In this document: piece by piece, positions 504 through 24,275 of the stretch
Layout: each line of letters begins with the position of its first letter
How positions within the stretch are numbered: position 1 is the first letter of the stretch
Assembly: GCA_019316985.1 (NCBI GenBank)
Contig: CP079215.1
Location: 3,844,001 to 3,908,000 of the forward strand
Reading direction: 5' to 3'
Length of the DNA: 64,000 nucleotides
DNA from: Paraniabella defluvii
GTDB taxonomy: Bacteria; Bacteroidota; Bacteroidia; Chitinophagales; Chitinophagaceae
Program-made: the position numbers and the translations under genes
The notes under the pieces: generated by a model
Told to the model about the DNA's origin: nothing
What the model saw: the letters and a program-made list of their open reading frames with translations, nothing else
The model's database searches: none

Positions 504-768
504 ATGGCTCGTTCAATTAAAAAAGGTCCTTATATAGCTACTCACTTAGAAAAAAGTGTTAGCAATCAATGAAGGAAGCGCAAAAAAATCGGTGATTAAA
601 ACCTGGAGCCGCCGCTCTACTATTTCTCCTGATTTCGTAGGCCACACATTTGCAGTACATAACGGTAATAAATTTATCCCGGTTTATGTAACAGAGTTTA
701 TGGTAGGTCATAAGTTAGGTGAGTTTGCGCCAACACGCCAGTTCAAAGGTCATGCTGGTGGTAAATAA
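504..768 (+). CDS. rpsS: 30S ribosomal protein S19 (apparent frameshift)
   Basis: S19 is part of the head of the 30S subunit. The start [17 protein letters not shown] begins at 504. The frame breaks in the A-run at 549-555 and resumes as [20 protein letters not shown], continuing through [14 protein letters not shown] to HAGGK. Adding one A to that run restores a normal ~88-residue S19. Because the gene is essential and both halves are fully conserved, I read the break as a sequencing deletion. It lies between rplB and rplV, the canonical position. Confidence 0.95.
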
Positions 769-849
769 TAATAATTAGTAAAGAAATTTATAAAAGTAAG
801 GTTTAAGGCTAAAGATTCTACTTAAAACCTTAAACATCAAACTTATAAA

Positions 850-1254
850 ATGGAAGCAGTAGCAAAACTTAGAAATTATCCAACATCGCCACGTAAAATG
901 AGGCTGCTTGCAGACCTTATCCGCGGCCAAAGGGTGGACCTGGTATTGGCTGAATTAGAGCACAATCCCAAACATCCTGCAGTACCTCTTCGCAAGCTGG
1001 TTTTGAGCGCTATCAGCAACTGGAAACAAGCTAACGAAGGTGGTGATGAAACCGGATTAGTTGTGAAAACTATATATGTTGACGGAGGCAGAACTTTAAA
1101 GCGTATGCGTCCTGCACCTCAGGGTCGTGGATACCGCGTGCGTAAGCGTAGCAACCACGTTACGTTGATTGTTGACGTGAAAAGCGAAGACGCCAAAGCT
1201 TCTAAAAAAGCTAAAGCTGCAACTAAAAAGACAAAAGAAACTAAAAACGCATAA
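850..1254 (+). CDS. rplV: 50S ribosomal protein L22
   Basis: Intact 134-residue L22, an early assembly protein whose extended hairpin lines the peptide exit tunnel. The N-terminus [20 protein letters not shown] and the loop [20 protein letters not shown] are typical. The last ~20 residues form a Lys/Ala-rich tail ([19 protein letters not shown]), longer than the core family and common in Bacteroidota. It ends nine bases before rpsC, so the two are probably translationally coupled. Confidence 0.97.
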
Positions 1255-1263
1255 CCAATAAAT

Positions 1264-2027
1264 ATGGGTCAAAAAGCAAATCCAATTGGTAACAGGTTAG
1301 GTATCATCCGCGGATGGGAATCTAATTGGTATGGAAGCAAAAGAGATTTCGCTTCCAAGTTAATCGAAGATAACAAGATCAGAACTTACCTGAATGCTCG
1401 TATCAATAAAGGTGGTATCTCCAAGATCGTTATCGAAAGAACTTTAGGAAAATTAATCATTACGATTCATACATCTAAACCAGGTATCATCATCGGTAAA
1501 GGTGGTGGAGAGGTTGACAGGATTAAAGAGGAGTTGAAAAAATTAACCGGTAACGATGATGTTCAGATTAACATTTTAGAGATCCGTCGTCCTGAGACTG
1601 ATGCTATGATCGTGGGTGATACTATCGCCCGTCAGATCGAAAACCGTATCAATTTCAAACGCGCTACTAAAATGGCTATTGCTTCTGCGCTTCGTATGGG
1701 TGCTGAAGGTATTAAGGTTAAATTGAGCGGTCGTTTAAATGGTGCTGAGATTGCCCGTAGCGAAGAGTTCAAACAAGGTCGTGTTCCTTTGCACACTTTC
1801 CGTATGGATATCGATTATGCAAACGTATTTGCTCAAACCGTTTATGGTAAAATCGGTATCAAAGTATGGATTTGTAAAGGAGAGGTTTTGACTAAAAGAG
1901 ATCTGAATCGAATTTCATTTCCGGAAATGATAAGAACACCGGTGCTGGTGGCGGTGAGCGCAGAGATCGTCGTGACGACAGGAGAGGTGATCGCCGTGGT
2001 GCAAGAGAAAGAAAAATTAAGTTTTAA
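1264..2027 (+). CDS. rpsC: 30S ribosomal protein S3 (apparent 3' frameshift)
   Basis: S3 forms part of the mRNA entry site of the 30S subunit. It starts [20 protein letters not shown] and has the KH-domain motif [15 protein letters not shown] near residues 75-90 and the C-terminal domain [12 protein letters not shown]. In the written frame the end is abnormal after TKRDLN. One missing C in AATCGAAT (about 1909-1912) would restore [15 protein letters not shown] followed by an Arg/Gly/Asp-rich tail of the usual Bacteroidota kind, stopping at 2025-2027. I therefore end the gene at 2027 and not at the later stop at 2040. Confidence 0.94.
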
Positions 2028-2039
2028 TATGACCATTTG

Positions 2040-2068
2040 AAGATTTGAGACTTTGATTATCTCAAATC
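2040..2068 (+). repeat. Low-complexity hairpin spacer between rpsC and rplP
   Basis: AGATTTGAGA (2040-2049) and TCTCAAATCT (2059-2068) are perfect ten-base inverted arms with a nine-base loop. A third partial copy (CGAATCTCAAATC) follows. Similar AT-rich imperfect repeats fill the other long spacers of this operon. Confidence 0.6.
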
Positions 2069-2096
2069 TCGAATCTCAAATCATAAATAAATAGCA

Positions 2097-2519
2097 ATGT
2101 TACAACCGAAGAGAACAAAGCACAGGAAAATGCAGAAAGGTCGCATGAAAGGCGATGCTAAAAGAGGTACTACTATATCTTTTGGTTCCTATGCTTTAAA
2201 AGCGTTAGACTCTCATTGGATTACCGATCGTCAGATTGAGGCAGCTCGTCAGGCACTTACCCGTAGCATGAAAAGGGAAGGTAATGTATGGATCCGCATA
2301 TTTCCTGACAAACCTATCACTAACAAACCTGCAGAGGTTCGTATGGGTAAAGGTAAAGGTAACCTTGAGTATTGGGCAGCTGTTGTACAGCCAGGCCGTA
2401 TCATATTCGAAGTAGATGGTGTTAGTGAAGAAGTTGCGCGCAGAGCATTACAGTTGGCTTCTGGTAAACTGCCAATTAAGACCAAGTTTACAATGCGCCG
2501 GGATTTAGTTACTAATTAA
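2097..2519 (+). CDS. rplP: 50S ribosomal protein L16
   Basis: Intact 140-residue L16, which contacts the A-site tRNA elbow in the 50S subunit. It begins [19 protein letters not shown] and contains the conserved [19 protein letters not shown] and the C-terminal [14 protein letters not shown]. Length and motifs match the family closely. It lies between rpsC and rpmC as expected. Confidence 0.97.
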
Positions 2520-2543
2520 TTCGCCATTCTCAAAAATATAGTC

Positions 2544-2758
2544 ATGTCAAAAAAGAAAGAATTCTTAGATAGCGTAAAGGGATTGAGTGTAGAAGACTTG
2601 AAAGTGCAGTGGAGCAATCTAAACAAAGGTTAAAAAAGCTGGAGTTTGCTCATGCAATCACTCCGCTTGAGAACCCAATGTCTATTCGCAGCCTGCGCCA
2701 GGACATTGCCCGCATCCAAACTCTTATCAGCCAGAAAACAGCGGTTGAGCAAGCATAA
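2544..2758 (+). CDS. rpmC: 50S ribosomal protein L29 (apparent frameshift)
   Basis: L29 is a small helical protein near the exit tunnel. The start is [20 protein letters not shown]. The frame breaks in TTGAAAGT near 2590; one more A gives [20 protein letters not shown], continuing with [19 protein letters not shown], the conserved L29 C-terminus, to the stop at 2756-2758. This is about 71 residues, normal for Bacteroidota L29. Neither half passes a 60-residue ORF cutoff, so simple gene callers would miss it. Confidence 0.92.
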
Positions 2759-2790
2759 ACGTCAATACGTCAAACGACAAATTATTAAAA

Positions 2791-3047
2791 ATGTCTGAAA
2801 GAAATTTAAGAAAAACAAGAATAGGGGTTGTTACCAGCAATAAGATGGAGAAAACCATAACTGTTGCTATTGAAAGAAAAGTTAAGCACCCTATCTACGG
2901 TAAGTTTTTGAAAAAAACAACCAAGTTTCATGCACACGATGAGAAAACGAGTGCAGCATTGGTGATACCGTTAAAATTATGGAAACCCGTCCGCTCAGCA
3001 AATTAAAACGCTGGAGATTGGTAGAAGTAGTAGAAAAAGTGAAGTAA
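2791..3047 (+). CDS. rpsQ: 30S ribosomal protein S17 (apparent frameshift)
   Basis: S17 is an OB-fold protein that binds 16S rRNA early in assembly. [20 protein letters not shown] opens the gene, and [19 protein letters not shown] is the typical core. The frame breaks at GAGAAAACGAG (about 2941-2951). One extra A gives [20 protein letters not shown], the diagnostic S17 motif, and then [15 protein letters not shown] to the stop at 3045-3047. The total of ~85 residues is normal. Confidence 0.94.
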
Positions 3048-3187
3048 TTAGAATTTAGTATTGAGATATTAGTATTGAGCTTTTATCATAAAATACACTA
3101 CTAAACTTTAGTAAATATTGTAAAGGAGATGATTTTGGATAAAGTGCTTCATCTAACATCTAAAATCTAACATCTAAAATCTAAAAA

Positions 3188-3558
3188 ATGATACAGCAAG
3201 AAAGCAGGTTAAATGTAGCAGATAACAGCGGCGCGAAGGAAGTACTTTGTATTCGTGTATTAGGCAACAGCGGCCAGCGTTATGCAAGAATTGGCGATAA
3301 AATAGTAGTTACCGTTAAGGATGCAATGCCTGCAGCCGGTATTAAAAAAGGTACAGTGGCTAAAGCCGTTATTGTACGCACTACTAACAAATTACGCCGT
3401 AAAGATGGTTCTTATATCCGTTTTGATGATAACGCGGTAGTGATATTGAATGCGGCAGATGAACCAAGAGGTACACGTATTTTTTTGGCCCGGTAGCCAG
3501 GGAATTGCGTGATAAAGGATACATGAAAATTGTATCATTAGCACCAGAGGTACTTTAA
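3188..3558 (+). CDS. rplN: 50S ribosomal protein L14 (apparent frameshift)
   Basis: L14 lies at the interface with 30S and helps form bridge B8. The first 97 residues run [20 protein letters not shown] to EPRGTRIF. The seven-T run at 3480-3486 then shifts the frame. In the corrected frame the protein continues [20 protein letters not shown] to the stop at 3556-3558, giving the standard 122 residues. The 140-base spacer before it has tandem copies of ATCTAACATCTAAA and no recognisable gene. Confidence 0.95.
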
Positions 3559-3662
3559 ATGCAAAGCGCTTAAGGCTAAAGGCTGAAGGCGTAACGATAA
3601 AAGATTTTCTCGAAAAGCTTTAAGCACTAAGCGAAAAGCGAAAAAGCATTAAGCATATAACA

Positions 3663-3998
3663 ATGAGCAACAGATTTAAACCCAAGTACAACATTAAAAA
3701 AGGCGACCAGGTGGTTGTGATTACCGGTGCAGATAAAGATAGAACCAAACCACGCCTTGTAAAAGAAGTATTGGTTGAAGAAGGTAAAGTTTTGGTGGAA
3801 GGCGTTAACATTAAAACACGTCATACCAAACCTTCTGCGCAAAATACTAAAGGTGGTATCGTTAAAAGCGAAGCTCCTATTAACATCAGCAACGTAATGT
3901 TGTGGGATGCAAAAGCAAAAGCTCCATCTAAAGTAAAGCGTGAGCGCGAAAACGGAAAAACTGCCCGTGTATTTAAAAAATCGGGAGAAAAAATTTAA
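3663..3998 (+). CDS. rplX: 50S ribosomal protein L24
   Basis: Intact 111-residue L24, an assembly initiator of the 50S subunit. The N-terminal KOW motif is clear in KKGDQVVVITGADKD (residues 12-26), followed by VEGVNIKTRHTKP and APINISNVML. It sits between rplN and rplE. A GC-rich palindrome follows immediately at 4001-4020. Confidence 0.97.
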   Translation: MSNRFKPKYNIKKGDQVVVITGADKDRTKPRLVKEVLVEEGKVLVEGVNIKTRHTKPSAQNTKGGIVKSEAPINISNVMLWDAKAKAPSKVKRERENGKTARVFKKSGEKI

Positions 3999-21537: not shown

Positions 21538-22693
21538 TTATTCAGCCCAGCTCATAACATAATTATCATTTTCTATATCCAGCGCCTGTTGGGTAAGCAT
21601 CAGTGGCCGGAATGTATCCACCATTACTGCGAGTTCCTTTGTTTCTTTTGCTCCTATGCTTTTTCAACAGCTCCGGGGTGTGGTCCGTGTGGAATACCTG
21701 CCGGATGTAATGTAATCATACCGCGTGTTACATTTTTGCGGCTCATAAAATCCCCGTCTACATAGTAGATCACTTCATCGCTATCGATATTGCTATGGTT
21801 ATAAGGCGCCGGAACGGCTAAAGGATGGTAGTCGAATAGCCTCGGTACAAAGGAGCATACCACAAAGGCGTTGGTTTCAAAAGTTTGATGCACCGGTGGT
21901 GGTTGATGCACGCGGCCGGTAATCGGTTCAAAATCGTGGATGGAGAAAATATAGGGATAACAGCAGCCATCCCAACCTACCACATCAAAAGGGTGCGTGC
22001 CGTAATGTAATCCATACAACATTCCTTTTTCTTGGCTTTAATCATGAAATCGCCTTTCTCATCAAATGTCTGCAGATCCTGTGGCGGGCGTATATCCCGC
22101 TCGCAGTAAGGTGCATGTTCCATCAATTGTCCAAAGCGACTCATATACCTTTTGGGAAAACGTAAAGGCGTAAAGGATTCTACGATGAATAAGCGATTGT
22201 TCTCATCATTAAAAGATATTTGATAAATGGTGCCGCGGGGCAGCATAATATAATCGCCATAACTAAAGAGCAATTCGCCATATTGCGTATGCACGGTACC
22301 GCTACCTTCATGTATAAAAATAAGCTCGTCTGCATCTGTATTTTTATAATAGTAATCCCGCATGCTTTGTTGGGGCGCGCCGCCAGCACAATGTGACAAT
22401 CGTTATTGACTAACACGGGTATACGGCTTTGCAGATAGTCTTTTACAGGTTTGATGTTAAAGCCTTCAAAGCTGCGGTGCTGCAGCATTTTTCTTCAGCT
22501 ATCTGAGGACTTACATCCACCTGGGGTCGGTCCTGATAATTTGCGTAGGAGGATGACAATGGTATAGCAATGAGTAGTCATCGCTAAAACCTTCTGTAGA
22601 AAATAGCTGTTCGTTATATAGCGAACCATCAGGCTTTCTGAATTGTGTGTGCCGTTTATGAGGGATTTTTCCCAATGTATAATAATGAGCCAT
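21538..22693 (-). CDS. hmgA: Homogentisate 1,2-dioxygenase (multiple frameshifts)
   Basis: Ring-cleaving Fe(II) dioxygenase converting homogentisate to maleylacetoacetate. It starts MAHYYTLGKIPHKRHTQFRK. Cupin core segments are DADELIFIHEGSGTVHTQYG and DYIMLPRGTIYQISF. The iron/substrate region is GTHPFDVVGWDGCCYPYIFS and the C-terminal His motif is HPAGIPHGPHPGAVEK. Length errors near 22520, 22490, 22380, 22020 and 21658 split it into four frames; the corrected C-terminus is LDIENDNYVMSWAE at 21538. About 387 residues. Divergent from hpd. Confidence 0.92.
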
Positions 22694-22961
22694 GTACCAT
22701 AATTTAAAATGTAAAATGTGGAATGTAAAATATAGAACGGTTTGCTTTACATTCCCTGTCAAATATGAGTATTAAACATTTCGGCTCATCGCGCCATAGC
22801 CAGGGTAGCCAAAAGAAAACAGTACTTCCATTTTCTTTTATCAATCCAGTAGGTAAAGTTTCTAAAGTATGGCATCGTTTGTAAAGTACTTTTTATAAGT
22901 AACGCATTACATCATTGGCAGTTTAAAATTACAGATAAAATCATTGCATTAAAAAAATAAC

Positions 22962-22969
22962 TATCTTTG
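22962..22969 (+). promoter_or_regulatory. -7 promoter box upstream of hpd
   Basis: TATCTTTG matches the Bacteroidota consensus TAnnTTTG. A possible -33 element (ATTG at 22943-22946) is spaced slightly short. Transcription would start near 22976, leaving a ~168-base leader before hpd. Confidence 0.55.
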
Positions 22970-22977
22970 TATTACCG

Positions 22978-23070
22978 ATGAGGCCTGATTATCCATATAA
23001 AATTTTTACGGACAAGCGCGTAAATTACGTATTGCTTGTTGAGGCCCTTGCTACTGATCACCGTATCTAA
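22978..23070 (+). CDS. Putative 30-residue leader ORF before hpd
   Basis: ATG at 22978 opens a 30-codon frame ending TAA at 23070. The peptide begins MRPDYPYKIFTDKRVNYVLL and has three Tyr and one Phe in the first 17 residues. It starts within a few bases of the predicted transcription start. It is followed by AAAGG/CCTTT arms and a nine-T run (about 23091-23119) that look like a weak terminator, then by hpd. Codons for Tyr in a leader of a tyrosine-degradation gene suggest attenuation, but a short ORF of this size can arise by chance. Confidence 0.3.
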   Translation: MRPDYPYKIFTDKRVNYVLLVEALATDHRI

Positions 23071-23090
23071 CCTATTCCCGTATTTTCCTG

Positions 23091-23119
23091 TAAAGGAATT
23101 TCCCTTTCTGTTTTTTTTT
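23091..23119 (+). terminator. Terminator-like hairpin and T-run in hpd leader
   Basis: AAAGG and CCTTT flank AATTTC, followed by CTG and nine T. The stem is only five bases as written. One missing G in a homopolymer, common in this sequence, would lengthen it. Role in hpd control is inferred only. Confidence 0.3.
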
Positions 23120-23143
23120 CTTTTAACGATTAAAATTTTTGTT

Positions 23144-24275
<1,132 letters not shown>

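Follow-up and report, generated by a model that had tools for sequence, protein, structure and literature searches.

A conserved short leader ORF upstream of hpd and other, mainly catabolic genes in Chitinophagaceae: a candidate family of regulatory nascent peptides

In the genome of Paraniabella defluvii a 30-codon open reading frame (ORF) lies between a promoter-like box and hpd, the gene for 4-hydroxyphenylpyruvate dioxygenase, which raises the question whether it is a chance ORF, an amino-acid attenuator or a regulator of another kind. The stretch of DNA analysed here, called the window, comprises 64,000 nucleotides of a one-contig, 6.13-Mb genome with an estimated completeness of 72%. The first-pass annotation of positions 22962 to 23143 had listed a -7 box, the 30-codon ORF with Tyr at residues 5, 7 and 17 and Phe at residue 10, a hairpin, a run of nine T and then hpd, and all of these elements are there as described. 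The -7 box (TATCTTTG, 22962 to 22969, plus strand), read from the sequence, is the putative promoter of the leader and hpd. The leader ORF (MRPDYPYKIFTDKRVNYVLLVEALATDHRI, plus strand), identified by profile matches and pN/pS, starts with ATG at 22978 and its TAA ends at 23070. It is followed on the same strand by a pyrimidine-rich, G-poor spacer (23071 to 23143) containing a small five-pair hairpin (23085 to 23089 with 23094 to 23098), predicted by folding and doubtful as a terminator, and, 12 nt past it, the nine T (23111 to 23119). The ATG of hpd is at 23144 and the gene extends to 24275 (plus strand; ORFs 23036 to 24001 and 24006 to 24275).

The hpd product scored 286.2 bits against TIGR01263 (4HPPD, cut-off 277). 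A divergent hmgA-like gene, for homogentisate 1,2-dioxygenase, occupies 21654 to 22693 on the minus strand; one of its fragments matched Pfam HgmA_N (33.3 bits, cut-off 20.2), two gave weak matches to TIGR01015 (24.9 and 22.3 bits, cut-off 510.75), and a Pfam scan of two others gave no match. Since hpd is broken near 23995 (23995 to 24010) and hmgA is spread over several frames, these frameshifts are probably sequencing indels of the assembly; in 30 fetched loci of relatives hpd was mostly an open frame of about 375 to 430 codons, with few broken. An Rfam gathering scan of the window returned one tRNA and nothing else, hence no known Rfam element at the leader. Three hpd-type leader peptides had no match in Pfam or NCBIfam.

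The 30 hpd loci of relatives were fetched using hpd alone, not the leader. The leader ORF was found in 10/10 loci of the same genus, in 9/16 loci of other Chitinophagaceae genera (one of the nine, L017, being degenerate) and in 0/4 loci of other families. A profile built from 12 hpd-leader peptides (A1) gave a strong match (E <= 1e-6) in 146 of 294 sampled Chitinophagaceae genomes; at E up to 1 the number was 232 of 294, the excess probably being largely noise. hpd was present in 243 of the 294 genomes, among them 137 of the 146 with a strong leader match, so that 106 hpd-bearing genomes had no strong leader match. All 108 leader places that could be paired, among the 150 listed, lay upstream of hpd on the same strand, with 59 to 250 nt between the leader match and the hpd match.

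The pattern MxPDYPxKxF was used to scan one genome per species for 84,980 bacterial and archaeal species, and 250 leader loci were confirmed. Among the best 80 of these, hpd was the downstream gene in 71, the best-matching named records were Niabella species, and the genus-named records were Chitinophagaceae genera with one exception. This exception is titled Williamsia sp. (L257), an actinobacterial name, and its label is probably wrong. A second leader profile (A2) matched in 9 of 395 genomes of the phylum, and a profile of the leader core (A4) in 10 of the 395 and in 42 of 248 genomes of the order, all of them Chitinophagaceae; in these two samples, for which a limited number of candidates was scored per genome, no leader was found outside the family.

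Sets of leaders picked with a leader profile are biased toward peptide conservation, and the cleanest test of selection is therefore given by the loci fetched by hpd. In these, pN/pS was 0.019 for the 10 same-genus hpd leaders and 0.079 for the 18 unique ones; the two alternative frames of the latter gave 1.52 and 2.36. Among the profile-picked sets, 68 hpd leaders had entropies of 0.76, 0.54 and 1.35 at the three codon positions and a pN/pS of 0.083. Folding of 20 aligned leaders gave three pairs and no conserved RNA structure, and no conserved pairing was seen within their first 100 nt. Judged from these substitution patterns, the 30-codon hpd leader is under selection at the protein level. 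A chance ORF was rejected on three grounds: conservation in relatives, family-wide profile matches and the frame-controlled pN/pS. The hpd-leader ORF is far beyond chance.

An alignment of 137 peptides was used to locate the constraint. D12, L20 and L24 each occurred in 136 of them, A25 in 135 and R14 in 134; none of these residues is fixed by a search pattern, and each is at least as conserved as Tyr 17. At that position Phe replaced Tyr in 20/137 peptides, and position 7 was Tyr in only 17/137. Residues 3 to 10 owe part of their near-invariance to the way in which the loci were found, with MxPDYPxKxF or with the profiles. Conservation stopped after residue 27 or 28 and gave way to a variable tail, total length ranging from 27 to 53 residues with a mode of 30. 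The first model position was ATG, TTG, CTG or GTG in 133 of 134 unique leaders.

A profile search of the genome itself turned up another, weak match, on the minus strand of the window, corresponding to a 29-codon ORF (MPYFRNFTYWIDKRKWKYCFLLATLAMAR, 22875 to 22786) before the divergent hmgA, which adds to what the first-pass annotation had seen. It was identified by profile matches and pN/pS, and a Pfam scan of its peptide gave no match. The motifs R-N-F, D-K-R-x-W-K and F-L-x-x-x-L are kept in relatives. Among 195 sampled family genomes, the hmgA-leader profile matched in 100 (E up to 0.01), and in 90 of these strongly. All of the 30 best fetched hmgA-type copies precede hmgA, 29 by script and that of the window by eye, since its hmgA is frameshifted. 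The pN/pS was 0.041 for 10 same-genus hmgA leaders, with 4.99 and 1.48 in the other two frames, and 37 profile-picked hmgA leaders had codon-position entropies of 0.43, 0.36 and 1.15 and a pN/pS of 0.052. An inverted repeat (GGAATGTAAA/TTTACATTCC, 22720 to 22755, minus strand) was seen by eye in the interval between this leader and hmgA. The hpd and hmgA leaders have a core in common (alignment A4), which is C-terminal in the hmgA leader; it was matched in 28/28 genomes chosen mostly because they bear leaders, the weakest best match having an E of 0.001.

The position of the leaders relative to the promoter was then analysed. A full TAnnTTTG box was present within 60 nt upstream of 56 of 68 unique hpd leaders, as compared with 2.9 expected from mononucleotide shuffles, and upstream of 56 of 71 in a second, partly overlapping set. 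In 46 of the 68 the start codon followed the box after 3 to 10 nt. The sigma-A box of Flavobacterium psychrophilum spans -12 to -5 according to excerpts of PMC9723704; with this spacing the transcription start in the window is predicted near 22974, which would leave a 5' untranslated region (UTR) of about 4 nt, and the 46 hpd leaders, starting so close to a full box, are predicted to have 5' UTRs of about 0 to 6 nt and thus nearly leaderless mRNAs. For comparison, 3.7% of 5' UTRs are under 10 nt in Bacteroides thetaiotaomicron (excerpts of PMC7366714) and 5.5% of mRNAs are leaderless in F. psychrophilum (same part of PMC9723704). The full box was found upstream of 17 of 37 hmgA leaders (2.05 expected), mostly 16 to 20 nt from the start codon; it was absent upstream of the window's own hmgA leader and of 5/5 tyrosine phenol-lyase leaders. 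No full box occurred inside 67 hpd spacers (3.6 expected) or 37 hmgA spacers (1.9 expected), and leader and downstream gene therefore probably share one promoter. The leader is then an upstream ORF on what is predicted to be the same transcript, conserved as a peptide and not as an RNA.

The hpd spacer measured 39 to 219 nt (median 72, 67 spacers), with a C content of 0.216 against 0.136 for G, C and G being about equal in the gene; this bias is compatible with Rho-dependent termination and indicates no more. In the window the best local fold of the hairpin was only -3.2 kcal/mol. The hairpin failed a general terminator scan and the stricter settings, passing only the loosest one tried (4 pairs, 2 G-C), and leader plus spacer folded no better than shuffles (z -0.27, a single fold). 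Spacers had a mean folding z of -0.53 in the hpd group and of -0.98 in the hmgA group. Across the family, a search for hairpins of 4 or more pairs (at least 3 G-C) followed by a T-rich tail found such structures in 22 of the 112 hpd spacers (5.0 ± 1.8 after dinucleotide shuffling), and 18 of these 22 began 4 to 26 nt past the leader stop; the same search in 32 hmgA spacers gave 3 against 1.5 ± 1.1 expected, hardly an enrichment. With four parameter sets the counts were 36, 22, 14 and 5 of 112 for hpd (18.3, 5.0, 2.3 and 0.9 expected) and 7, 3, 2 and 1 of 32 for hmgA (3.8, 1.5, 0.7 and 0.1 expected), in a set of spacers thinned for kinship only by removing those with identical first 25 bases.

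The case for the terminator proposed in the first-pass annotation is thus weak: hairpins are enriched in the group of hpd leaders, but within the genus only 6/10 spacers had one that was clear by eye at the matching place, and the closest relative (G003/L002) lacks the nine-T run. Among close relatives the ORF is kept and the hairpin partly. Since the hairpin of the window passes only the loosest setting, is patchy in the genus and loses its T run in the closest relative, it is a frequent but not a necessary part of the system. The candidate that an intrinsic terminator is the universal output was weakened by the weak local hairpin, its patchiness in the genus and the scant enrichment after hmgA leaders.

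The leader is not confined to hpd and hmgA. Among 20 fetched leader places the downstream gene encoded tyrosine phenol-lyase in 5, 4-hydroxyphenylpyruvate dioxygenase in 3 (one assigned by eye at a contig end), a histidine decarboxylase (HDC)-like decarboxylase in 2, an MFS transporter in 2, and PEP carboxykinase, a LytTR protein, a LytTR response regulator and a HATPase protein in 1 each; 3 places had no close gene and 1 was cut by a contig end. Weaker leader copies add PEP synthase, fructose bisphosphatase and class I/II aminotransferase (2), and also precede additional LytTR genes as well as one large gene that looks NTPase-like. Among the named records of the best 80 of the 250 loci are a further HDC target, in Niabella ginsengisoli, and two with PEP synthase. 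HDC thus stands behind the leader in four genomes (G115, G163, G285 and N. ginsengisoli), and PEP synthase does so in three records; PEP carboxykinase, fructose bisphosphatase, HATPase and NTPase-like targets are single cases. For every main kind of target, one example was scanned against the libraries, the rest being identified by similarity; some scanned proteins were cut at 420 residues and some scores lie under full-length cut-offs, as for tyrosine phenol-lyase (TIGR02618, 692.6 bits, cut-off 720.7, protein cut at 420 aa). An element specific to hpd was rejected because these other genes share the leader.

Several of these loci deserve a separate mention. The HDC-like genes, for PLP decarboxylases, lie at L202, L072, L077 and L125. 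Genes with a LytTR domain stand behind the leader at L064, L067, L117, L126 and L127, two of them scanned and the others named by similarity, and these targets could themselves be regulators. At L123 (near 754 to 3687) a leader-like ORF with a TTG start and a longer tail lies directly 5' of a 920-residue gene, which looks NTPase-like by similarity and could be a defence gene. The three copies with no close same-strand downstream gene (L068, L071 and L075, in genomes G200, G222 and G152) are either orphan copies or have lost their targets.

From these sequence comparisons we consider it rather likely that the leaders form a new Chitinophagaceae family of regulatory nascent peptides, probably arresting ones, which would control genes of amino-acid catabolism and gluconeogenesis in cis by a logic similar to that of TnaC. 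This reading best fits the constraint at the peptide level, the position on the transcript and the succession of a conserved core and a variable tail. Transcription of hpd would start a few bases 5' of the leader start codon, so that the ribosome would load near the 5' end of the mRNA and make the leader peptide before hpd. The nascent chain, through its conserved residues (about 3 to 27) with the core D-x-R-(2-3)-Y-x-[LF]-L-x-x-x-L-[AE], would contact the exit tunnel, and the ribosome would pause or arrest near codons 26 to 28 when a catabolic signal is present. This signal could be one of the free amino acids, tyrosine perhaps, or a broader indication that amino acids are in excess; the targets, which cover tyrosine and histidine catabolism and gluconeogenesis, suggest free amino acids or the general gluconeogenic state. 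The arrested ribosome would keep Rho or a weak intrinsic terminator from acting in the pyrimidine-rich, G-poor spacer, and hpd, hmgA and the other targets would in this way be transcribed only when needed. The output may be Rho, an intrinsic terminator or mRNA stability, and its sign, like its nature, is put forward here as a conjecture.

The first-pass annotation had seen a likeness to amino-acid attenuators and had suggested either a reversed logic or tyrosine-dependent stalling as with tnaC. Of the latter proposal, stalling itself gains from the presence of a conserved, peptide-selected ORF between a promoter and a catabolic gene, which suggests that it would depend on the peptide; the Tyr codons as the sensor are not supported, in view of their replacement at residues 7 and 17 and of the leaders of genes outside tyrosine metabolism, which hold as many Tyr as those of hpd (means of 2.33 for HDC, n = 3; 2.0 for PEP carboxykinase, n = 1; 2.5 for PEP synthase, n = 2; against 2.06 for hpd, n = 112). 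The same observations, together with the conservation of the non-Tyr residues, make it very unlikely that scarcity of charged tRNA-Tyr slows the ribosome at the Tyr codons and lets the downstream RNA refold, even though two or three Tyr codons do precede a gene of tyrosine catabolism and hairpins are enriched after hpd leaders. Such attenuation would moreover work backwards for a catabolic gene, and no competing RNA structure was seen in the leader. We regard as extremely unlikely that a near-leaderless upstream ORF only raises downstream translation or mRNA stability, its peptide being irrelevant. The predicted 5' UTR near zero of most hpd leaders would suit this role, and a reinitiation function of leader genes has been proposed earlier (excerpts of PMC4833913), but the low pN/pS in frame and the high values in the other frames call for selection on the peptide, and a leader stop 39 to 219 nt from hpd is far for simple coupling.

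The amino-acid conservation would also suit a small protein acting in trans, as a co-regulator or enzyme partner that is merely co-transcribed with catabolic genes; the three copies with no close downstream gene fit this, and peTrpL is a precedent of a leader peptide with a role in trans (excerpts of PMC7298713). The steady placement of the leader between the -7 box and its target, its occurrence before unrelated targets, the difference between the hpd and hmgA leaders of one genome and the end of the conserved part before a variable C terminus speak against such a protein, which we consider unlikely. It is quite unlikely, in our estimate, that the sign is the opposite, with arrest letting a terminator form or exposing the spacer to Rho so that the signal represses catabolism. 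If the ribosome halts some codons ahead of the stop, as predicted, the hairpins 4 to 26 nt beyond it would indeed be free to form, but induction by the substrate is the expected logic for catabolic genes.

Several observations also count against the arrest-peptide reading that we prefer. A ribosome arrested at codons 26 to 28 would reach little past the stop and would therefore not by itself cover hairpins 10 to 20 nt downstream, and the variable tail argues against TnaC-style arrest at the stop codon. The hpd genomes with no strong leader match (106/243), the three copies with no close gene and the targets known from single cases weigh in the same direction, as do the weak hairpin, patchy in the genus and hardly enriched after hmgA leaders, the sparseness of the full -7 box at hmgA and its absence at the tyrosine phenol-lyase leaders. 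More tentatively, it is possible that we are dealing with a portable, near-leaderless arrest peptide that serves as a general sensor, its core being placed before genes of tyrosine breakdown (hpd, hmgA, tyrosine phenol-lyase), other amino-acid catabolism and gluconeogenesis (PEP carboxykinase, PEP synthase, fructose bisphosphatase) and before some regulator genes, so that this regulon would be coordinated through sensing by the ribosome and not via a DNA-binding protein.

One conserved peptide stands before more than eight kinds of gene across many Chitinophagaceae genera. To our knowledge, an arrest peptide mostly has a single kind of target, and post-transcriptional control in Bacteroidota is little explored. 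If the leaders work as proposed, they would make up a regulon in which the ribosome governs amino-acid catabolism and gluconeogenesis, and they would provide many natural variants for studying how a nascent chain senses metabolism. Genome annotation, too, would gain small genes that are so far unannotated.

Among known systems, in the classical attenuators (trp, his, phe) codons for the regulated amino acid are clustered, and a terminator is present with a competing antiterminator that overlaps the leader. The leaders described here have no such pathway-specific cluster, their Tyr content being alike before genes unrelated to tyrosine. In general logic they would resemble SpeFL, a leader peptide that senses ornithine, a catabolic substrate, through its nascent chain. 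Another parallel is TnaC of the Escherichia coli tryptophanase operon, likewise a short peptide encoded ahead of a gene of amino-acid catabolism (excerpts of PMC8429421), and some of our leaders precede tyrosine phenol-lyase, a relative of TnaA. However, the TnaC hallmarks W12, D16 and Pro24 at the stop (same excerpts) are not shared: Trp is almost absent from the 137 peptides, their C terminus is variable and no Pro is conserved at the stop. TnaC precedes tryptophanase in one operon, whereas our leaders precede hpd in 71 of the best 80 of the 250 loci and many other types of target, on mRNAs predicted to be nearly leaderless; and in TnaC a ligand-induced arrest blocks Rho-dependent termination, whereas our leaders are known from sequence alone. 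Within the phylum, the part of a survey of Sec/YidC arrest peptides available to us (PMC10987492) mentions only Pro-stop candidates as exclusive to Bacteroidota. These candidates (NSP-stop, NAP-stop) are, like our leaders, upstream ORFs with a conserved peptide sequence, but as presented there they lie before secA or secDF and have a Pro-stop end, whereas our leaders have mainly catabolic targets and a variable end. Leader-peptide attenuation has been suggested for amino-acid biosynthesis operons of F. psychrophilum (excerpts of PMC9723704). The phylum and the upstream position on the transcript are shared with our leaders; the targets are biosynthetic in what these excerpts describe and mainly catabolic or gluconeogenic here, where the whole peptide is conserved and not only codons for a regulated amino acid. 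No earlier description of this leader peptide was recognised among the best-ranked results of the literature searched, which left subscription papers mostly outside. Leaders acting through nascent peptides are thus known, and what appears new here is the peptide family, its use before many targets and its near-leaderless start.
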